Below are positions 9,852-20,977 of a stretch of DNA of 64,000 nucleotides, in pieces. Numbering within the stretch: the first letter of the stretch is position 1; every line of letters begins with the position of its first letter. Below the pieces are notes generated by a model, which saw only the letters and a list, made by a program, of their open reading frames with translations, was not told the origin of the DNA and searched no databases. Source of the DNA: Luteolibacter pohnpeiensis (lineage in GTDB: Bacteria; Verrucomicrobiota; Verrucomicrobiia; Verrucomicrobiales; Akkermansiaceae); assembly GCF_016595435.1 (NCBI RefSeq), contig NZ_JAENIJ010000014.1, positions 1 through 64,000 on the forward strand, in the 5' to 3' direction. A program made the position numbers and the translations under genes.

Positions 9852-10286
9852 TCAATTCGACATCGCAGACAGTGGCGGAATGTTGATCGAATCGTCGGTC
9901 ATCAAAGGTAAGTTGGCCGATTCTGCCCGACTGAGATCATAGATATTCGTTATGCCATCTCGCGTAAGTTGAGTATGTTGAATATCTCCCAATGCTGTGG
10001 GTCCGCCGACTCGGTCAATTAAATCAGAGAGTGTGGTCTTAGGTGAAACACTGATGGCTCCAGGCTCTTTGACTTCGCCCGTTATCTGCAAATGGAGATA
10101 TTTCGACCGTATCCAGGTTGCCAATGAAAGATCACCCATGGTGCTTTTCAGTGACCTGGTTGGTTTGGATGGATCCTGATAGATTGCGTGAATCTCATCG
10201 TCCGTTCCGTTTCGAAGTTTGATATAAACCAATAGCGCTGCCAAACCCAGGCAAGCAGCACCGATGAGTTTGAGAAACGACTTCAT
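9852..10286 (-). CDS. SLBB-domain protein with N-terminal membrane anchor
   Basis: 144 residues from ATG 10286. One hydrophobic segment at residues 3-20 (SFLKLIGAACLGLAALLVYI) is a signal peptide or anchor. The C-terminal half fits the SLBB fold of polysaccharide-export and competence proteins: QITGEVKEPGAISVSPKTTL, then LSDLIDRVGG, a strand with LTRDG, and DDSINIP at the end. No Wza-type export domain is present, so it is not a full exporter. Divergent from blaI across ~140 bp that contain two inverted repeats, so co-regulation with the BlaI/M56 genes is likely but not shown. Confidence 0.7.
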   Translation of the reverse strand: MKSFLKLIGAACLGLAALLVYIKLRNGTDDEIHAIYQDPSKPTRSLKSTMGDLSLATWIRSKYLHLQITGEVKEPGAISVSPKTTLSDLIDRVGGPTALGDIQHTQLTRDGITNIYDLSRAESANLPLMTDDSINIPPLSAMSN

Positions 10287-10365
10287 GTTAGGTTGGGGAA
10301 TGCGGTGAGTGGATGATTTTTCCGAGCGTTCAGCAAGTTCACGATGATTGGATAAAAAATCAAAC

Positions 10366-10381
10366 GACGACATTTGTCGTC
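10366..10381. promoter_or_regulatory. Candidate BlaI operator 1
   Basis: GACGACA-TT-TGTCGTC is a near-perfect 16-bp palindrome between the divergent SLBB and blaI-like genes, 43 bp before the blaI ATG. BlaI/MecI repressors bind palindromes with ACA/TGT half sites as dimers, so this is a plausible autoregulatory and divergent operator. Confidence 0.55.
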
Positions 10382-10391
10382 TTTGTGGATT

Positions 10392-10409
10392 GACATGCCG
10401 ACGGATGTC
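10392..10409. promoter_or_regulatory. Candidate BlaI operator 2
   Basis: GACAT-N8-ATGTC (18 bp) lies 15 bp upstream of the blaI-like ATG. Its GACA/TGTC halves match those of the first palindrome but with a wider spacer, consistent with a second, weaker operator. Confidence 0.4.
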
Positions 10410-10424
10410 GTCAAAAAGGCGGGT

Positions 10425-10820
10425 ATGAGCGATCGAAATTTACCAGCCTTGTCGCCAGCGGAGCAGGCCTTGATGGACCGGATTTGGAAAAAGCAGCCTG
10501 TAGCCGCTTCGGATTTGTTGGGCCTGGTCAATGCGGATCGCGACGAACCGATCACGCGCAACACCTTGCAGACCCAGTTATCGCGATTGGAAGCCAAGGG
10601 CTGGATCGCGCGTGAGGGGGGAGGACGGTCGATTCAGTATCGGGCTTTGGTTTCTGAGAAACGGGGTCGCGGCCGGATTTTGAAAGAATTGAAGCAGCGC
10701 ATGTTCGGAGGTTCCGCCCTATCGATGATGCGTTGCTTGGTGGAGGATGGTGGATTTTCCAAAAACGAGATCAGCGAATTGCGGAAACTGCTGGAGGAAA
10801 AGAAAGGTGGTGAAAAATGA
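10425..10820 (+). CDS. BlaI/MecI/CopY family transcriptional repressor
   Basis: 131 residues from ATG 10425 (MSDRNLPALSPAEQALMDRIWKK). The N-terminal winged helix shows the family pattern: LSPAEQALMDRIW, ASDLLGLVNADRD, TRNTLQTQLSRLEAKGWIARE, then a wing and a C-terminal dimerisation helix (LMRCLVE-like, ISELRKLLEEKK). Such repressors are released when a membrane M56 (BlaR1/MecR1-type) protease triggers their cleavage. The stop overlaps the ATG of the first M56 gene (ATGA), so the two are translationally coupled. The open frame upstream to 10374 would run through the operators and is not used. Confidence 0.88.
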   Translation: MSDRNLPALSPAEQALMDRIWKKQPVAASDLLGLVNADRDEPITRNTLQTQLSRLEAKGWIAREGGGRSIQYRALVSEKRGRGRILKELKQRMFGGSALSMMRCLVEDGGFSKNEISELRKLLEEKKGGEK

Positions 10821-12952
10821 AGTCACTCCTGAACGAGATTCCGGAGTTTTGGCTAAACTTCGCGCTGCACAGCGCTTTGCTTTCAGTGATAGCTGGGCTG
10901 GCATGCCTTCTGTTGCGTGATCCCGCGAAGCGGGCGTTTGTCGCGGCAGTCGGTATCGGTGCCATTGGTGTCTTGCCGTGGATCTCAGCGATGCGGTTGA
11001 ATCCGCAAATTTCAACTCCGGTATCGGAGGCTGTGCTTTCGGAGTCTGTGAACTCGAAGGCGATACCTTCGAGTTCAGTGATTCCCGAATGGACGATTCG
11101 GATAGAGCGTGCCGCTCAAGAATTCTCACAGACGCCCGTGAGGATACCTGAGTCCCCCGCGCGCGGTCAGCAGCAAAAGGTCGATCCATGGGCTGTGGTT
11201 GCCGTGATTTGGTTTAGCGGAATGTTGCTGGGATTGTTAGGGATTTCGATCCGCCAGGCGCGGGTATTCCGTTGGTTTGGAATGACTCAAGCAGTGGACC
11301 ATGAGGAATGGAGGCAAATCCGGCATCACGGTTTGAAGCCGAGGCAATTCCGTGTAACGACTGCGGCGGTTAGCCCCTGTGTGGTCGGTTTTTTCAGACC
11401 AAGGATCGTGCTTCCAAAGCATTTGCTCGAACTCCGTGATGATACCAAGCTGGATTGGGCAATCCGTCATGAGGCGGAGCATCTACGATGCGGCGATTCG
11501 CGGGTCGCAGTGCTTTTATCCTGTGCTAAGGCGATCGTGTGGTGGAATCCAATGGTCCATCTGCTTTGCAGAACTTGGGCAAGCGAACGGGAGTGTGCCT
11601 GCGATGCCAGCGCGACGGCGCGGGATGAGGACCGTCGAGGCTATGGCAACTTTCTACTAGAATTATCCGAGACCTTGTCCTGTTCGGTCAACGGCGCTGT
11701 TCTGATGGCGACACCCGGGGAGTTTCGGAGAATGAAGCGGCGGCTTATTTCATTGGTGAACAGACAACCGGTCGTCCAAATGACGGCAATCTTCAAAGCG
11801 GCAACAGTTGCAATCGCAATCTCGAGCGGGCTCGCAATGTCCTGTGCGGGAATTGCATGGGCGGATGCAAACGATATGCCAGAAGACGGAGTCGTAGAGG
11901 CTCCGACTATCGATTCGGTGATAAGCGAAGCCGCGCCACCGGCAGAGACGAAAATGGTCGAAGAAAGGTCCTTGATGCTGCCTCAGCTCTATTTCGCGAT
12001 GAAACTGGTTGCCACTAAAGATCCAATTCCTGAAGCCGGACAGTCTTTGAATGAAAAAGAGCTAGCGCTTCTCATGACCCGATTAAAAGCGCTGCCAGAA
12101 AACGAGATTATCGTGGCTCCAACTGTCACCATGCGCAGTGGGGAAAAGGCGACGATCGAAATCAGTCGTGAGTTAATATGGGGTGTCGAAGGTGATGACT
12201 ATAACGTTGATCTGCTTGGTTGGCATACTGAGGTTAGGGCCGTAAATCATGGAGATGAAGCGATATTAGAGATCGAATCCCGTCACACTTACTTGTCTGA
12301 TCTATATGATTTTGGAAATCCGAAAAAACTGCCAGAAGATTACCATTATCATGGTGGTTTGGTTGTTAATATGGCCAAGTTGAGTGGTTATGAGATGGTG
12401 AATGGGGAGACGGCAGTTGTTCAATTTAATCAGAAGGAAGAGGGTAAATATGTAACCGCGCTCATGACCCTGAAGGCAGCTGATCATTCTGGAGCTGCGG
12501 ATCGAACGATTCCTGGAAAGATCCGCGTTTCCGGGGAGTTTTTCGATTCCACGGATCTTCCGAGCAATTACGGTGGAGATCAATCGGCTGTAGGAAAAAA
12601 TTTTTATCGTAGACCCGAAATTGTAGGTTTCTTCAGTGCAGATCAGTTCGAAACGATTAAGGCGAAATGTAAGGAAAAAAATCCGAGCTTTGCGCCGATT
12701 GAACTGAAGACTGTTGAAGTGGATTCTGGGGTAAAGGCACAGCCATGGAATAAATTTCCAAACTTTTCCGTGAAATTGTCCAAATGGACGAATGTGTTTT
12801 GTGCGCTGGAATTAAGTGATTCGGCGGACGATGAAGGAGACTTGGTTGAAACTGTTTATGGAAAAAATTATGTATTCCTTGTGCGTTTGTTTGATGGGGC
12901 TGGTGATAACTTCAAGGTTATTGCTGTGAGATTTGAAGGGGTTGAAGAATAG
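10817..12952 (+). CDS. M56 (BlaR1/MecR1-type) metallopeptidase with secretin-like C-terminal domain
   Basis: 711 residues. Membrane helices near residues 12-33, 40-58, 125-147 and 325-347 surround a cytoplasmic zinc protease domain with HEAEH (218-222) and the later SERECACDASA, as in M56 peptidases. The protease would act on the BlaI-type repressor encoded upstream. The ectodomain is not the penicillin-binding domain of BlaR1; residues ~431-452 read APTVTMRSGEKATIEIS, similar to the conserved secretin core of GspD-type proteins, followed by beta-rich sequence with HTYLSDLYDF. The sensed signal is unknown. An AAGGTGG precedes the ATG. Nucleotide sequence at 10919-10998 is nearly repeated at 13078-13157, showing tandem duplication with the next gene. 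The last ~800 bp are noticeably more A+T-rich. Confidence 0.85.
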   Translation: MKSLLNEIPEFWLNFALHSALLSVIAGLACLLLRDPAKRAFVAAVGIGAIGVLPWISAMRLNPQISTPVSEAVLSESVNSKAIPSSSVIPEWTIRIERAAQEFSQTPVRIPESPARGQQQKVDPWAVVAVIWFSGMLLGLLGISIRQARVFRWFGMTQAVDHEEWRQIRHHGLKPRQFRVTTAAVSPCVVGFFRPRIVLPKHLLELRDDTKLDWAIRHEAEHLRCGDSRVAVLLSCAKAIVWWNPMVHLLCRTWASERECACDASATARDEDRRGYGNFLLELSETLSCSVNGAVLMATPGEFRRMKRRLISLVNRQPVVQMTAIFKAATVAIAISSGLAMSCAGIAWADANDMPEDGVVEAPTIDSVISEAAPPAETKMVEERSLMLPQLYFAMKLVATKDPIPEAGQSLNEKELALLMTRLKALPENEIIVAPTVTMRSGEKATIEISRELIWGVEGDDYNVDLLGWHTEVRAVNHGDEAILEIESRHTYLSDLYDFGNPKKLPEDYHYHGGLVVNMAKLSGYEMVNGETAVVQFNQKEEGKYVTALMTLKAADHSGAADRTIPGKIRVSGEFFDSTDLPSNYGGDQSAVGKNFYRRPEIVGFFSADQFETIKAKCKEKNPSFAPIELKTVEVDSGVKAQPWNKFPNFSVKLSKWTNVFCALELSDSADDEGDLVETVYGKNYVFLVRLFDGAGDNFKVIAVRFEGVEE

Positions 12953-12954
12953 GT

Positions 12955-14760
12955 ATGTCTAACTCTTGCAGTGTTATGAATTCGATCATTTATGAATTTC
13001 CGGCATTCTGGCTGAACTTTGCGCTGCACACGGCATTGCTATCAGCTCTAGTCTGGATGGCTTGCAGATTAATGCGTGATCCCGCGAAGCGGGCGTATGT
13101 CGCGGCAGTTGGCATCGGTGCCATTTGCGTATTGCCGTGGATTTCGGCAATGCGGCTGGGTTCTGGTCATTCTAAATTGCCTGCTGGATCGGAAGAATCC
13201 GCTCAAGCAACATCAATGGGGGAATTCGTGCCAACTGAATCGCCGCTACCGGATTGGACCATTCATCTCGAACGCAAGGCTCCGTCTGAGGTTCCAGCCG
13301 AACGGACAGAAATGATTTCACCGTCGATTCCAGAAGCGAATCAAATCGATCTTCTCTCGACTGCCGGTTTCGTCTGGATCGCTGGGAGCGTGATGGGACT
13401 GGTGTGGATTTCCATTCGTCAAGCGATGGTGGTTCGTTGGGCTTCGTCGACGCGCGAGGTCGTTGATGGGGAATGGGAAACATTGAAACGCGGCGATTTA
13501 AGACGCGATCAGTTTCGGATTTCTACAGAGGTGGTGAGCCCTTGCGTGGTGGGATTTTATAAGCCGAAAATAGTGATCCCGACCTGGCTGTTAGAATCGT
13601 CCGAGAATTTGCATCGCACGTGGGCGATCAAGCACGAGGCAGAGCATTTGCACGCCGGTGACTCCAGAGTGGCGGTGCTACTATCTTTGGCAAAGGCACT
13701 GCTTTGGTGGAATCCGGTAGTGCATCTGCTCAGCTTATCTTGGGCAGCGGATCGTGAGCGGGTTTGCGATGCACGTGCAGTCGGATCAGCGAGCGAACGG
13801 CATCGCTATGGCAACTTCCTACTAGATTTATTGGAGCAATCTCAAACTTGGATTGGTGGATCGATTTCGATGGCACGTAAAGGAAAACTCAGGGAAATGA
13901 AGATGAGACTTAAGTATTTGATGAAAAATCAACCGGTGGCGAACGCTTCCTTGTCGTTTAAGGCAATGGTGAGTTGCGCTTTGTTATTAACGACTACGTT
14001 GATCGCTTTCACGGGATGTGAATTGGCAACGGTCAAATCGTCACCTTCAATAGCGTTCGGGAAAGCAGATGGGGAGATTGTAGAAGTATTAGAAGAATCT
14101 ACTCCCCCTGACCAACTAGAAAGCGATCAGCTTGAAGTATATGACCGAACGCTCGCGTCCGTTGATCTGATGGTCGTCGCCACACAAGATCCTTTACCAG
14201 AGAGCGGACGAATGTTGAGTAAAGACGAAAAAAATGACCTATTGCGACGCTTGTCTCTAGCAAGTGAGTCTCGCGTGATGAAATTCCCGCATATTACCTT
14301 ACGCAGCGGACAAAGAGCGAATACTGAAATCTATCGAGAGGTGACTGTCGTTTCGAAGAAACACGAAGCTACGCAAATCAAGCTCGGTTGGCTAGCAACC
14401 TTTTTTAGGAGAGGCGGAGGCAAGGATGTGATGTTGGATTTTCGTCTGAAACATACCTATCTTCCAGACTTATACGATGAAAATAAAATTTATGATGAAA
14501 AATTTGAAATCGATGAAGTCCCGGCCGACTATCTGTTTAAAGGTGATTTGGTAATAAATCTGGCGGAGGTGAAGCAGCGGGTGATGTCGAGCGAGAGCAC
14601 TATCGTAGTTCCGTTCGCAAGTGTTGAGAAAGGTAAGCATCTATCAGCCCTGGTTACAGTTAACGCAATCAATTTTGCGGGGCTTCCAATCCCTGACTTT
14701 CAATCACCGGACTCGGCGAGTCCTCATTATAATGGAGTATTGGGACTTCCCGGTGATTAG
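12955..14760 (+). CDS. Second M56 metallopeptidase paralogue, cut by an in-frame TAG
   Basis: 601 residues up to a TAG at 14758-14760. Same architecture as the upstream gene: N-terminal helices with RDPAKRAYVAAVGIGA, zinc motif HEAEH (227-231), DRERVCDARA, a hydrophobic segment ending in TGCE, and the secretin-like core PHITLRSGQRANTEIYRE with HTYLPDLYDE. It begins 2 bp after the first gene's stop; a second Met at 12976 is an alternative start. The same frame continues open beyond the TAG to 15228 and stays similar to the C terminus of the first paralogue, so the protein is either truncated, a recent nonsense mutant, or made full length by stop-codon readthrough. The protease domain is intact. 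Confidence 0.8.
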   Translation: MSNSCSVMNSIIYEFPAFWLNFALHTALLSALVWMACRLMRDPAKRAYVAAVGIGAICVLPWISAMRLGSGHSKLPAGSEESAQATSMGEFVPTESPLPDWTIHLERKAPSEVPAERTEMISPSIPEANQIDLLSTAGFVWIAGSVMGLVWISIRQAMVVRWASSTREVVDGEWETLKRGDLRRDQFRISTEVVSPCVVGFYKPKIVIPTWLLESSENLHRTWAIKHEAEHLHAGDSRVAVLLSLAKALLWWNPVVHLLSLSWAADRERVCDARAVGSASERHRYGNFLLDLLEQSQTWIGGSISMARKGKLREMKMRLKYLMKNQPVANASLSFKAMVSCALLLTTTLIAFTGCELATVKSSPSIAFGKADGEIVEVLEESTPPDQLESDQLEVYDRTLASVDLMVVATQDPLPESGRMLSKDEKNDLLRRLSLASESRVMKFPHITLRSGQRANTEIYREVTVVSKKHEATQIKLGWLATFFRRGGGKDVMLDFRLKHTYLPDLYDENKIYDEKFEIDEVPADYLFKGDLVINLAEVKQRVMSSESTIVVPFASVEKGKHLSALVTVNAINFAGLPIPDFQSPDSASPHYNGVLGLPGD

Positions 14761-15228
14761 TCTCAATTTCGTGATCTAATTTCGGTTGATCCACCGCGTG
14801 AGCGCATCGTGCGGTACACGGGAGCCGTCATCGAGATGCCGGATCATGATTTTCAAGTTGAAGGCGAAACGTTTCGGTATTGGACGGACAATTCCGAGCC
14901 CTTTGGACGTGCTCTGCCTCAAGTTCTACTATGGAAGCTTTGGCGCGAATCCCAAAAAACCAACTCATCGGTCAAGTGGACCGATCTGGAGCCAATCGAT
15001 GTCCCAAGCGGAAAATCCACCAAGCTCTGGCCGGTTTATCCGAAACTGACAGTTACACCCGGAAAGGAAGAAAACGAGGGGCAGGTCAAGACCGAGGTGA
15101 CGATCGAAGGATGGCGCACCACCGAATTTGTGAATTTTCCGAAAGGGGCGATGAGCACGTTCAAACTCGGGGATTCTGATGGCAGACGGCGCTATTTTGT
15201 GTTCGATGGCCGGTTTATTGAGAAATGA
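14761..15228 (+). pseudogene. Detached C-terminal part of the second M56 paralogue
   Basis: 156 codons in exactly the frame of the preceding gene, without a stop until TGA at 15226-15228. The segment DLEPIDVPSGKSTKLWPVYP then KLTV aligns by eye with ELKTVEVDSGVKAQPWNKFP then NFSV in the first paralogue, so it is the missing ectodomain end. Within it a GTG at 14809 could begin a 139-residue product, but that protein would have no signal peptide. Read as a remnant or as the readthrough extension of the gene before it. Confidence 0.75.
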
Positions 15229-15334: not shown

Positions 15335-15847
15335 ATGACTACTCCTGTTTCCCCAACTTGTGATTCCTCCTCCGTTGAGCCAGTTCCAGCTGAAATGAAC
15401 ACGGTCACTCCACACCTTGTTTGTGCTGGTGCTGCGGCAGCGATCGATTTTTATCAAAAGGCATTCGGCGCGGTGGAATTGACCCGATTGGAAACCCCGG
15501 ACGGCAAAATCATGAACGCCGGGATTCGCATCGGGAACTCGATGCTGATGCTCGTGGATGAAATGCCAGACTGGAATTGTTTGGGACCGAAGGCACGTGG
15601 CGGGACTTCCGTGACGATTCATTTGCAGGTGCCGGATGCCGATGCGCTATTCGCTCAAGCAGTGGCCGCAGGTGCTCAGCCGAAGATGCCTGTGACTGAA
15701 ATGTTCTGGGGTGACCGCTATGGCATGGTGGAAGATGCATGGGGCCATTCATGGTCGATGGGAACCCGGGTGAAAAATCTGACTCAGGAGGAAATCGCCA
15801 CTGCAGCTGCAAACGCGCAGTGTGGGGAAGGATGCTGCGAATCATAA
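15335..15847 (+). CDS. VOC-fold protein (glyoxalase/PhnB-like)
   Basis: 170 residues. After a ~20-residue Ser/Pro-rich leader comes a two-module VOC fold: TPHLVCAGAAAAIDFYQKAFGA, then GKIMNAGIRIGNSMLMLVDE, and the second half VTIHLQVPDADALFAQAVAAGA with FWGDRYGMVEDAWGHSWSMGT. This is the PhnB/YdfO-like branch of the glyoxalase superfamily; the enzymatic reaction is not predictable. The C terminus ends in a CGEGCC cluster, unusual for the fold and possibly metal- or thiol-reactive. ATG at 15335; followed 21 bp later by a second VOC gene. Confidence 0.85.
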   Translation: MTTPVSPTCDSSSVEPVPAEMNTVTPHLVCAGAAAAIDFYQKAFGAVELTRLETPDGKIMNAGIRIGNSMLMLVDEMPDWNCLGPKARGGTSVTIHLQVPDADALFAQAVAAGAQPKMPVTEMFWGDRYGMVEDAWGHSWSMGTRVKNLTQEEIATAAANAQCGEGCCES

Positions 15848-15868
15848 AACTCAAACGGAATCGGAGTC

Positions 15869-16384
15869 ATGGCGATCTCTGCTAAAATCACACCGTGTCT
15901 TTGGTTTGATTCTGAAGCTGAACAGGCGGCTGAGTTTTACGTTTCGATCTTCAAAAACTCACGAATTGTCCGGAGGACTTACTATAGCGATGTAGGCAAA
16001 GAAATTCATGGTAGGGAGGCAGGGTCCGTCATGACGATCGAGTTCGAGCTGGAAGGGCAAACCTTCACGGCTTTGAACGGTGGTCCGCTGTTTACCTTAA
16101 CCGAAGCGATTTCATTCATGGTCGACTGTGCGGATCAGGCTGAAGTGGACTATTTCTGGGATCAGCTGAGTGATGGCGGACCGGAGGAGTCCCAACAATG
16201 CGGTTGGTTGAAAGATCGCTTTGGGGTGACTTGGCAAATCGTGCCATCGATTTTACCCGAATTGGTTACTGGGCCGGATCGGGAAAAATCCGACCGTGCG
16301 ATGAGTGCCATGTTGGAAATGAAAAAGTTAAACATTGCCGCACTTCAAGCAGCATATGAGGGCATCGATCCAATGGAGCCATAG
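15869..16384 (+). CDS. PhnB-like VOC protein (3-dmu-9_3-mt type)
   Basis: 171 residues with the pattern of the family named after 3-demethylubiquinone-9 3-methyltransferase: KITPCLWFDSEAEQAAEFY, VSIFKNSRI, VMTIEFELEGQTFTALNGG, then AEVDYFWDQLSDGG, GWLKDRFGVTWQIVP and a C-terminal RAMSAMLEMKKLNIAAL helix. Most members have no methyltransferase activity and the true role is unknown. It follows the other VOC gene at 21 bp, so they are probably co-transcribed. Confidence 0.87.
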   Translation: MAISAKITPCLWFDSEAEQAAEFYVSIFKNSRIVRRTYYSDVGKEIHGREAGSVMTIEFELEGQTFTALNGGPLFTLTEAISFMVDCADQAEVDYFWDQLSDGGPEESQQCGWLKDRFGVTWQIVPSILPELVTGPDREKSDRAMSAMLEMKKLNIAALQAAYEGIDPMEP

Positions 16385-17665: not shown

Positions 17666-20600
17666 TTAGTCGGGTGAGTTGAGATGGAGCGACTGATGCA
17701 GCGTTCCTTTTTTGAATTCCCGGCTTCGCAGCCAGAGGAAAATCACAGGTGTGACAATGAGAATGTGAAGCAGGCTGGAAATCATTCCGCCGATGACTGG
17801 AGTCGCAAGTGGTTTCATCACTTCCGCTCCTTGACGATGGCTCCACATGATGGGCAGCAAACTGGCGACGATGGTGGCCACGGTCATGACCTTGGGTCGA
17901 AGGCGCAACCGGGCGCCATCTTTTACCGCCTGCACCAGATCAGCATGGGTGAAGGCAGAGCCCAATTCGCGGAGCCGATCCCGCACGGTTTCTTCGAGGT
18001 AGACGACCATCACGACGCCAGTCTGAACCGCCGTTCCGAAAAGCGCAATGTATCCGACCCAAACCGCGCCATTGAAGTGATAGCCTAGGATTTTTTGAAG
18101 AAGGACACCGCCACTCAAAGCAAATGGAACCGCAAGCATCACGTGGGCTGCCTCAAGTGCGCTGTGATAAACGAAATAGAGGAGGACAAAAATCACCATC
18201 AACACGAGCGGGAAAACCAATGTCATGGTTTTCGCAAAGCGACGTTGGTTTTCGAAATCGCCGGTGAGCTTGTAGGTCATGCCTTCCATGTCGAAATGGG
18301 CGAGCTTTTGTTCCACTTCTTCGACGAAGCTACCGAGGTCGCGATCGCGAACATTTGCCTGCACGAACGATCGCAGCATGCCGTTCTCCGACGCGATTTC
18401 ATTGGCCCCGATGTCGCGGCTGATTTTGGCGACCATGGCAAGTGGGATGTAGGGCATGGGTTGGGAATTTCCTTCACCGGCCATTCCGGGTTTGGTGGCG
18501 ATGAGAATCCGGCCGAGTTTTTCAATGTCATCGCGCTCGCTACGCTCAACCCGAATCTGGATCGGAAAGCGCTCACGGCCTTCGATGGTTGTGCTGACAT
18601 TCTTGCCGCCGATGGACACTTCGACTGCATCGAGCACATCTTTGGCGCTCAAGCCGTAGCGCGCCATGGCTTTGCGATCGACCTGAATGTTGAGGTAGGG
18701 CTTGCCCTGCACGCGCGATGGCGAGACGCCGTCTGCGCCAGGAATGGCTTTCACCAGCTTTTCAATTTCCAGGGCCTTGCGTTGGATTTTATCGAGATCA
18801 TCGCCGTAAATCTTGATGCCGACCTGAGCGCGAATGCCGGTGTAGAGCATCAAAATCCGATTTTCGATCGGTTGCAAAAATGCCGGGACGTAGCCGGGGA
18901 CGAGCTTCATTTTCTCGGTTAGCTCGGCCTTGAGTTTCGCGGTCGTCATGCCCTTGCGCCACTCAGGATTGCGTTTCATTCCGAAAATCCCATTCGGGAT
19001 GTATTCGGGTTTCAGCAAGATCGTGGTCTCTAACATTTCGGTCGGTGCCGGATCGGTCGCGGTTTCGAATCGGCCCAGTTTGCCGGCGACATTTGCCACT
19101 TCCGGTGTTTCCGCGATGATCCGATCCTGCCAGGACATGACACGCTGGATTTCTGTTAGGCCGGTCTTTGGCATCATCACCGGCATGAAGAGCAGGCTGC
19201 CTTCGTTGAGTGGTGGCATGAATTCCTTGCCAAAGCCAGTGACCATTGCGGCAACCCTTGGATGACCGGAATCGGCGATTTTTCGAATGACCGGTCGAGG
19301 CAAACCGAAGGCTTCTAACAAGGCCACGGAAAGAATGACGCAGGCGGCGGCAACCACGGTCTTCTTGTGATTGAGCGCCCAATTGAGCACCGGATCATAG
19401 AGGCGGAGCAGGAATCTCATGATGAAATTCCGATCCTCGGAATGGAAGGGACCGCGCACCAGAATCGAGCAAAGCACCGGCACCAATGTGACGGCCAGCA
19501 GGCTGGAACCGATCATGGCGAAGGTCTTGGTAAACGCCAGCGGATGGAACAGTTTGCCTTCCTGGCCGGTCAGCGCGAACACCGGGACGAATGCGAGGAT
19601 GATGATGGCCATGGCGAAAAAGATCGGGCGGCCGACTTGTTTGCTCGCTACCAGTGCGGTTTCCCAGGTTTCGCGGGCAGTGAGTTTTTCGCCCTTTGCC
19701 GCCTCCGCTTTTTCACCATGCCGTAGCACGTTTTCCGTGACCACGATGGCGGCATCGACCAATACGCCGATGGCGATCGCGATGCCTGTTAGAGACATGA
19801 TGTTGCTGCTGATATCGAATTGCTTCATCAGCAAAAACGAGATCAGGATCGAGATCGGTAGCGGCAGTGTCACGATCAGGATGCTGCGGAAATGCCACAG
19901 GAAAAGAACGTGGGCCAGCGTGACCAGAATGATTTCCTCGATCAATGCATGCTTCAGCGTGCCAATCGTGTGGTCGATCAGTTCGCTACGGTCGTAGAAA
20001 GGCTTGATGGTAACGCCGGGCGGCAGGCTCGATTGAATTTGGGTGACCTTTTGTTTCACCCGCTCAATCACGGCCTTCGCGTTTTCTCCGGTGCGCATGA
20101 CGACGGTTCCGCCGACGGCTTCATGGCCATTGAGGTCAAGCGCGCCACGTCGGAAATCCCCGCCGATTTGCACCGTGGCGATGTCCTTTAAATAAATTGG
20201 AGTACCATCTACGGCTTTAATCGTAGTCAATTCCAGATCTTCCGTGCTGGTTACCAAGCCGATTCCGCGCAGGACGAACTCCGCGCCATTTTCCTCAACC
20301 ACTTTTCCGCCGACATTGAGGTTGGCGTCCTGAACCGCACTCATCACCTCCTGAAGCGTCACATTCGAAGCGCGCATTTTAGTGGAGGAAAGCTCGATCT
20401 GGTATTGTTTCACGAATCCGCCGATGCTTGCGACTTCGGCGACGCCTTGCACGCTGGCGAGTTGATAGCGAACATACCAGTCCTGGATCGATCGGAGCCG
20501 CGCGAGATCGTATCCACCGTTCGGAGCCTTAGCTGGATCGACATCAAGGTAATATTGATAGACCCAGCCAAGACCGGTGGCGTCGGGTCCGAGTTGTGGA

Positions 20601-20977
20601 GTGACCCCTTCCGGCATCGAGCTTTGCAGATAGTTCAATCGCTCAAGCACGCGGCTCCGGGCGAAGTACTGATCTACGCCGTCTTCAAAGATGATCGTGC
20701 TCAAGGAAAAGCCGAACATTGAGCTGGCTCGCACTTCTTTTACACCGGCAAGTCCTTGAAGGCCGGTGGTCATGGGGTAGGTAATTTGATCCTCAACCTC
20801 CTGGGGACTGCGTCCCGGCCAATCCGCGTAAACGAGAACCTGATTTTCCGTTAGATCCGGAAAGGCATCGACCGGCGTTTGATAGACCGCGCGAATGCCA
20901 AGTGCGACGATCAACAGGGTGGCACAGGCGACGAGGAACCGGTTTTTCAGGCTCCATTCAATGATGCGTTCGATCAT
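17666..20977 (-). CDS. cusA: Heavy-metal RND efflux pump, CusA/CzcA family
   Basis: 1103 residues, slightly longer than typical CusA. Inner-membrane proton-driven pump that exports Cu+/Ag+ or divalent metals through a tripartite complex. N terminus MIERIIEWSLKNRFLV is standard, as is the TM4 motif GIAIAIGVLVDAAIVVTENVL with the proton-relay Asp and Glu. The porter domain contains FMPPLNEGSLLFMPVMMPKT, with the methionines common in the Cu/Ag branch. A ~20-residue insert (LPRPVIRKIADSGHPRVAAM) follows the TM segment after residue ~550. Encoded 9 bp after cusB and upstream of the YHS-like gene. Which metal is moved cannot be proved from sequence; the partner's metal-binding domain favours Cu/Ag. 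Confidence 0.93.
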   Translation of the reverse strand: MIERIIEWSLKNRFLVACATLLIVALGIRAVYQTPVDAFPDLTENQVLVYADWPGRSPQEVEDQITYPMTTGLQGLAGVKEVRASSMFGFSLSTIIFEDGVDQYFARSRVLERLNYLQSSMPEGVTPQLGPDATGLGWVYQYYLDVDPAKAPNGGYDLARLRSIQDWYVRYQLASVQGVAEVASIGGFVKQYQIELSSTKMRASNVTLQEVMSAVQDANLNVGGKVVEENGAEFVLRGIGLVTSTEDLELTTIKAVDGTPIYLKDIATVQIGGDFRRGALDLNGHEAVGGTVVMRTGENAKAVIERVKQKVTQIQSSLPPGVTIKPFYDRSELIDHTIGTLKHALIEEIILVTLAHVLFLWHFRSILIVTLPLPISILISFLLMKQFDISSNIMSLTGIAIAIGVLVDAAIVVTENVLRHGEKAEAAKGEKLTARETWETALVASKQVGRPIFFAMAIIILAFVPVFALTGQEGKLFHPLAFTKTFAMIGSSLLAVTLVPVLCSILVRGPFHSEDRNFIMRFLLRLYDPVLNWALNHKKTVVAAACVILSVALLEAFGLPRPVIRKIADSGHPRVAAMVTGFGKEFMPPLNEGSLLFMPVMMPKTGLTEIQRVMSWQDRIIAETPEVANVAGKLGRFETATDPAPTEMLETTILLKPEYIPNGIFGMKRNPEWRKGMTTAKLKAELTEKMKLVPGYVPAFLQPIENRILMLYTGIRAQVGIKIYGDDLDKIQRKALEIEKLVKAIPGADGVSPSRVQGKPYLNIQVDRKAMARYGLSAKDVLDAVEVSIGGKNVSTTIEGRERFPIQIRVERSERDDIEKLGRILIATKPGMAGEGNSQPMPYIPLAMVAKISRDIGANEIASENGMLRSFVQANVRDRDLGSFVEEVEQKLAHFDMEGMTYKLTGDFENQRRFAKTMTLVFPLVLMVIFVLLYFVYHSALEAAHVMLAVPFALSGGVLLQKILGYHFNGAVWVGYIALFGTAVQTGVVMVVYLEETVRDRLRELGSAFTHADLVQAVKDGARLRLRPKVMTVATIVASLLPIMWSHRQGAEVMKPLATPVIGGMISSLLHILIVTPVIFLWLRSREFKKGTLHQSLHLNSPD

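Follow-up and report, generated by a model that had tools for sequence, protein, structure and literature searches.

A BlaI-type repressor with secretin-tipped M56 receptors in Luteolibacter pohnpeiensis: a candidate envelope-sensing module of the Verrucomicrobiales

Switches of the BlaI/BlaR1 type normally detect penicillin, and the proteases of the BlaR1 type are known mostly as beta-lactam sensors. In Staphylococcus aureus a signal received on the ectodomain of BlaR1 activates its protease, which cleaves BlaI directly and so relieves repression (PMC9834060). Mislocalised secretins are reported to stress the inner membrane and to enter a complex with Psp proteins (PMC5596341).

Here we describe a locus of Luteolibacter pohnpeiensis (contig NZ_JAENIJ010000014.1; genome of 4.67 Mb) lying in a window of 64,000 nucleotides, the whole stretch of DNA that was analysed. 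The module would work in the manner of BlaI-BlaR1 but lacks the sensor feature which defines BlaR1, and it carries a domain of the secretin family yet is no secretin. Its composition suggests an undescribed envelope-sensing system made up of BlaI and a secretin-tipped M56 protease. The combinations BlaR1 with secretin, BlaI with SLBB, and M56 with secretin returned nothing relevant from the open-access literature, to which the search was confined.

Gene organization and repressor

From left to right the locus comprises slbb on the minus strand, two dyads and, on the plus strand, blaI followed by two receptor genes in tandem. The features are:

9852..10286, minus strand: SLBB gene, 144 aa (PF10531 8e-11 and PF22461 1.4e-7, both above cut-off)
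10366..10381, no strand: predicted operator 1, a perfect dyad of GACGACA and TGTCGTC about a central TT (GACGACATTTGTCGTC)
10397..10412, no strand: predicted operator 2, GCCGACGGATGTCGTC, a 2-mismatch copy of the dyad lying 31 bp from the first
10425..10820, plus strand: blaI-type repressor gene, 131 aa (PF03965 5e-22)
10817..12952, plus strand: receptor 1, M56 metalloprotease, 711 aa (PF05569 7.5e-32)
11981..12499, plus strand: secretin-like core of receptor 1, aa 389-561 (hhalign, Amuc_1098 family, Foldseek)
12500..12949, plus strand: C-terminal domain of receptor 1, without a Pfam match, conserved in several relatives
12955..14760, plus strand: receptor 2, M56 paralogue, 601 aa (PF05569 4e-30), ending at an in-frame TAG
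14152..14688, plus strand: secretin-like core of receptor 2 (alignments, and a match at E 4e-53 to profile A6, which includes the receptor 2 sequence itself)
14761..15228, plus strand: severed C-terminal tail of receptor 2, in the same frame with one TAG before it, containing an ORF at 14809-15228

An earlier note, made from the sequence alone, had placed a BlaI repressor, two tandem M56 reading frames and a divergent SLBB gene here, and Pfam identifies each of them at those positions. The blaI and receptor 1 genes overlap and the two receptor genes almost abut, which is operon-like spacing. The blaI frame is open from a TTG at 10374; its likely start, 10425, was picked from the N-terminus MKSLPxLSxAEQALM common to the relatives. 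The likely start of slbb is 10286, the alternative ATG at 10373 falling inside the dyad, and no convincing candidate for an slbb promoter was found. Named matches to the module come from the Verrucomicrobiaceae and Brevifollis.

The repressor possesses the Penicillinase_R winged-helix domain (PF03965, above cut-off), and its matches to the NCBIfam BlaI, MecI and CopY models are all below cut-off; the CopY/CopR model TIGR02698 gives 57 bits against a cut-off of 122. The C-terminal CXC metal motif of CopY/CopR is absent from its sequence. Operator 1 agrees with the CopY/BlaI-type consensus RNYKACANNTGTMRNY (PMC7253601), of which it is the sole match within the window, and it has no other exact copy in the whole genome, in which some eight copies of the quality of operator 2 occur. 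In close relatives GACGACAnnTGTCGTC is found upstream of blaI as one copy or, mostly, as two, 31-36 bp apart. The dual dyad before the repressor's own gene is thus retained, and for this reason the dyads are not considered a chance occurrence; the palindromes which the earlier note saw as shared between the divergent genes are real. In the other receptor classes the dual dyads before blaI differ in sequence (CCGACAnnTGTCGG and GGYTGAAATTTCARCC), so that repressor and operator appear to have stayed together.

A wider BlaI regulon was not apparent. There is no further exact site in this genome, where sites at up to 3 mismatches are no more frequent than in a reversed-pattern control, and in seven relatives' genomes all 13 of the 13 copies of GACGACAnnTGTCGTC at ≤1 mismatch sit at the module locus. 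With the dyad so confined the circuit looks local and autoregulated; judging from these sites, the module looks to control itself and at most its divergent neighbour. Five contigs of the genome (C44, C66, C88, C166 and C177) carry recurring sites resembling TACGNCANNTGTCGTA, which may serve a different BlaI/CopY-type repressor as operators.

Two VOC-type genes (15335-16384) lie immediately 3' of the module on the same strand. In one relative (G114) a VOC gene is divergent from the module, its similarity to the window VOC genes being undetectable at the threshold applied. About 2.4 kb downstream is a CusA/CzcA-type heavy-metal efflux pump (17666-20977, minus strand; TIGR00914 above cut-off). 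A copper/CopY reading, raised by this pump, was rejected on the missing CXC motif and the lack of an operator at the pump.

The receptors and their ectodomains

By hydropathy and motif search, receptor 1 has four predicted TM helices and an HEAEH motif at aa 218, then the ectodomain. In receptor 2 the HEAEH zinc motif is intact at aa 227, the TM segments are near the expected places and the ectodomain is again C-terminal. Both share the BlaR1-like layout, in which an HEXXH-bearing M56 domain, together with TM helices, precedes a C-terminal ectodomain. A C-terminal penicillin-binding sensor domain was detected by Pfam in neither, as the earlier note had maintained, and the two receptors reach just 55.3 and 48.3 bits with the NCBIfam model blaR1_generic (cut-off 400 bits). 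Elsewhere the genome encodes a canonical BlaI-BlaR1 pair with a transpeptidase/penicillin-binding domain (L050), giving beta-lactam sensing a separate locus. BlaI and M56 are paired a third time at L051, in a short version.

In a tree of M56 domains receptor 2 clusters with receptor 1, one long-branch row aside. Translation shows a single TAG in its frame, at 14758-14760, followed by open frame to 15228; codon-position GC does not change across the TAG, and the tail shares KWTDLEP with the C-terminal domain of the G114 receptor. Because of the common frame and the match to relatives' C-terminal domains, ORF 14809-15228 is regarded as the severed tail of receptor 2 and not as a separate gene. 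The TAG may be a single-base assembly error. Since receptors naturally without this domain occur in relatives (L047 and L143), the shortened receptor 2 could still function.

Pfam gave no match for either core in the window or for the C-terminal domain of receptor 1. Comparison of profiles was more productive: hhalign aligned ten receptor cores with 25 Verrucomicrobial secretins from the first helix to the end (98.1%, E 1e-13), the controls, one reversed and five column-shuffled profiles, reaching at most 0.3%. Run over 338 genomes of the order, the core profile found in most of them full receptors first and, next, true secretins some 900 aa long (about 1e-14), and a phylum-wide profile search in which three candidates were scored per genome returned secretins. 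The NCBIfam family of the Amuc_1098 pilus secretin matches receptor 1 at 1.5e-5 and the receptors of most relatives tested at 4e-3 to 4e-52. In a PDB sequence search the type II secretins ranked first, though at no better than E 0.015.

Structure prediction agrees. From an alignment of five sequences the core was modelled with a pLDDT of 71 and a pTM of 0.68, and its 18 best Foldseek matches in the PDB are all secretins or secretin-containing needle complexes; the modest TM-scores are attributed to the channel strands missing from the core. The model of the full ectodomain, from an alignment of five sequences, is of low confidence (pLDDT 52). The secretin-like core postulated in the earlier note is therefore a real secretin relative, and structure prediction, which that note had recommended for the ectodomain, leads for the core to secretins and not to an unrelated fold.

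Alignments reveal that, relative to secretins, the receptors lack the segment running from the RE strand to the GQTVV strand; this segment we take to contain the membrane-spanning part. The type IV pilus secretin of Verrucomicrobia (Amuc_1098 family), less that part, is the homologue of the ectodomain core. None of the attributes of a secretin channel (a membrane-spanning part, a gate, PF00263 above cut-off) is present in the window receptors; PF00263 is above cut-off in relatives L070 and L173-L180. The C-terminal domain of receptor 1 (12500-12949) was considered as a second, degenerate core and rejected, hhalign giving a non-significant 2-3%. A 924-aa receptor in another genome (L043:4853-7627, G026) carries the secretin-like core as a tandem duplicate.

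Distribution of the module and its possible SLBB partner

The pairing of BlaI with a secretin-type M56 protein proved to be a recurrent module of the Verrucomicrobiales with its own operators, a recognizable blaI being present at 45 of 50 loci. Among the five others, L168 and L174 are at a contig end, L171 and L181 have no M56 match, and one is a class-B receptor (G184). In Brevifollis gellanilyticus (L072 / G184:C52) a secretin-type M56 receptor is preceded by two dyads with no adjacent blaI found; it may be regulated in trans. Over the 50 loci no conserved target gene was seen beside the module other than the module itself, the divergent neighbours elsewhere being a VOC protein, purE, a helicase or a GH43 glycosidase. 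The last is divergent upstream of the module in genus g7, where five genomes have it (L044, L047, L048, L049 and L143), and was rejected as a conserved output, being limited to one genus and perhaps mere synteny.

The SLBB protein of the window consists of an N-terminal membrane anchor (aa 4-22 by hydropathy) and one SLBB domain, its sole domain in Pfam, where the Poly_export domain of the Wza type was absent. A separate SLBB gene adjoins the module at 1 of the 50 loci, that of the window genome. The earlier note had held that its idea would fall if SLBB did not regularly accompany the BlaI-M56 pair and, taken literally, that is what was found. The proposed link nevertheless finds independent support in a different guise: of the 68 genomes of the related family f4, 13 have M56, Secretin and SLBB in one polypeptide beside blaI, with SLBB at the C-terminus. 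The eight fusions run through Pfam have both the Secretin and the SLBB domain above cut-off. Among the 13, one carries a second SLBB domain, and a frame break splits another. These receptors (loci L173-L180 and L208-L220) have the dual dyad GGYTGAAATTTCARCC near the blaI start. The fusion renders a functional SLBB link plausible, short of proof. Close kinship of the window SLBB to the fused SLBBs was rejected; its sequence is nearer to the SLBBs of polysaccharide export.

The M56 tree places the SLBB-fused clade with canonical BlaR1 (98/93), apart from the window clade, a join rendered uncertain by the long branches that meet there. With the M56 domain of the fused clade nearer to canonical BlaR1, secretin sensors have, on the sequence data, probably been captured by M56 proteases at least twice. 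An Acidobacteriota M56 protease (L083:5548-7071) weakly matches PilQ N domains in its C-terminal half (NCBIfam 2.4e-5) and is possibly a third, independent M56-secretin coupling.

Interpretation and comparison with known systems

The sequences establish the architecture, the intact catalytic motif, the secretin homology, the operators with their uniqueness, and the fused homologues. We propose, at roughly even chances, regulated proteolysis of the BlaI/BlaR1 type in which an envelope sensor derived from a pilus secretin replaces the penicillin-binding one, with SLBB as an accessory. A BlaI dimer on the two dyads would repress the operon that encodes BlaI, and probably slbb on the opposite strand too. 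By analogy with BlaR1, an envelope signal on the secretin-like ectodomain would switch on the cytoplasmic zinc protease, which would cut BlaI and lift repression. As the likeliest signal we take the condition of the type IV pilus, or of another secretin, such as protomers left unassembled or misplaced. The SLBB protein, with its membrane anchor, may act as a separate accessory on the same side, matching the role of the fused SLBB in f4.

Favouring this secretin-sensor reading are the BlaR1-like motif and TM layout, the direct cleavage of BlaI by BlaR1 in S. aureus, the secretin homology, the dyads confined to the locus, the dual dyad that each receptor class has preserved for itself before blaI, the f4 fusions, and the inner-membrane stress known from mislocalised secretins. 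Set against it are the lack of a conserved target gene, the rarity of SLBB adjacency, the export-like character of the window SLBB, the absence of a convincing slbb promoter, the different M56 lineage of the fused clade, and a core without the channel-forming part. The secretin-derived fold and SLBB might bind peptidoglycan or exported polysaccharide in place of secretins, making the receptors glycan sensors; the closest relatives of the window SLBB include one beside a Wzc-like protein in a polysaccharide-export neighbourhood (G067 locus), the fused SLBBs match the EpsE/EpsY export models of NCBIfam, and there is the divergent GH43 gene of genus g7. That gene, however, is confined to one genus, perhaps by synteny alone, and in 3 of the 5 genomes has its start some 800 bp or more away from blaI, and the element common to all loci is the secretin fold and not SLBB or GH43; we consider glycan sensing rather unlikely. 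It is only a little less probable than our own proposal, and compatible with either kind of sensor, that SLBB is a chance neighbour and the module proper is blaI with its receptors. The 49 other loci lack the adjacency, the divergent gene varies among them and, as the genome has some ten SLBB genes, the probability of chance adjacency is an estimated 0.5% or so, low yet not negligible. The SLBB-M56-secretin fusion in 13 genomes lowers the likelihood of coincidence, as does the position of both operators between the start codons, given an slbb start at 10286.

The two remaining explanations carry much less weight. The in-frame TAG of receptor 2 could mark the whole module as a decaying relic, but receptor 1, BlaI, the operators and the HEXXH motifs are all intact, the tail of receptor 2 is still open, naturally short receptors exist and a single-base assembly error may be the cause, so that decay is quite improbable. 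Still less credible, to the point of being nearly negligible, is an ordinary BlaR1-type sensor of beta-lactams or another antibiotic: the homology of BlaI and M56 would allow it, but the receptors lack the penicillin-binding domain which the canonical pair elsewhere in the genome retains.

The secretin-sensor reading can be extended, tentatively and with more doubt than belief, to a class of transmembrane protease receptors with captured pilus secretin domains and SLBB as a fused or separate co-sensor. These would watch whether secretins or pili are assembled or become misplaced at the inner membrane, and would respond by degrading the BlaI repressor, a proteolytic counterpart of Psp that would have evolved more than once. 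If a widespread pilus-secretin branch is genuine, the signalling chassis of BlaR1 would be modular and a pore-forming protein would have been converted into a sensor domain. The module is a testable candidate for the means by which Verrucomicrobia, relatives of Akkermansia among them, monitor their envelope export machinery.

Among the described systems, the CopY/CopR copper repressors belong to the same repressor superfamily and share the operator type, and differ in that the window BlaI is without the metal motif and has a protease partner. The Psp response is a proposed parallel only, as an inner-membrane reaction to secretin or envelope trouble; it has no proteins in common with the module, whose relay would be repressor proteolysis. 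With secretins of the Amuc_1098 family the receptors share the helix, the strand pair PSVTTRSGQKATIEVxRE, GxxLEV, a GQTVVxGGL-type strand and the final strand; unlike them, they are without the membrane-spanning stretch and the N domains and are joined to a membrane metalloprotease. The f4 fused receptor, as in Brevifollis gellanilyticus, likewise has a blaI neighbour, dual dyads and M56, secretin and SLBB domains, but as one polypeptide with a fuller secretin domain, an M56 domain closer to canonical BlaR1 and an operator of its own. In common with BlaI-BlaR1 and MecI-MecR1 of S. aureus, the locus has a BlaI-family repressor with dual dyads, an adjacent four-TM M56 HEXXH protease with a C-terminal ectodomain, and a further divergent gene; it departs from them in its secretin-derived ectodomain, its two tandem receptors, and a divergent gene which encodes SLBB and not a beta-lactamase or PBP.
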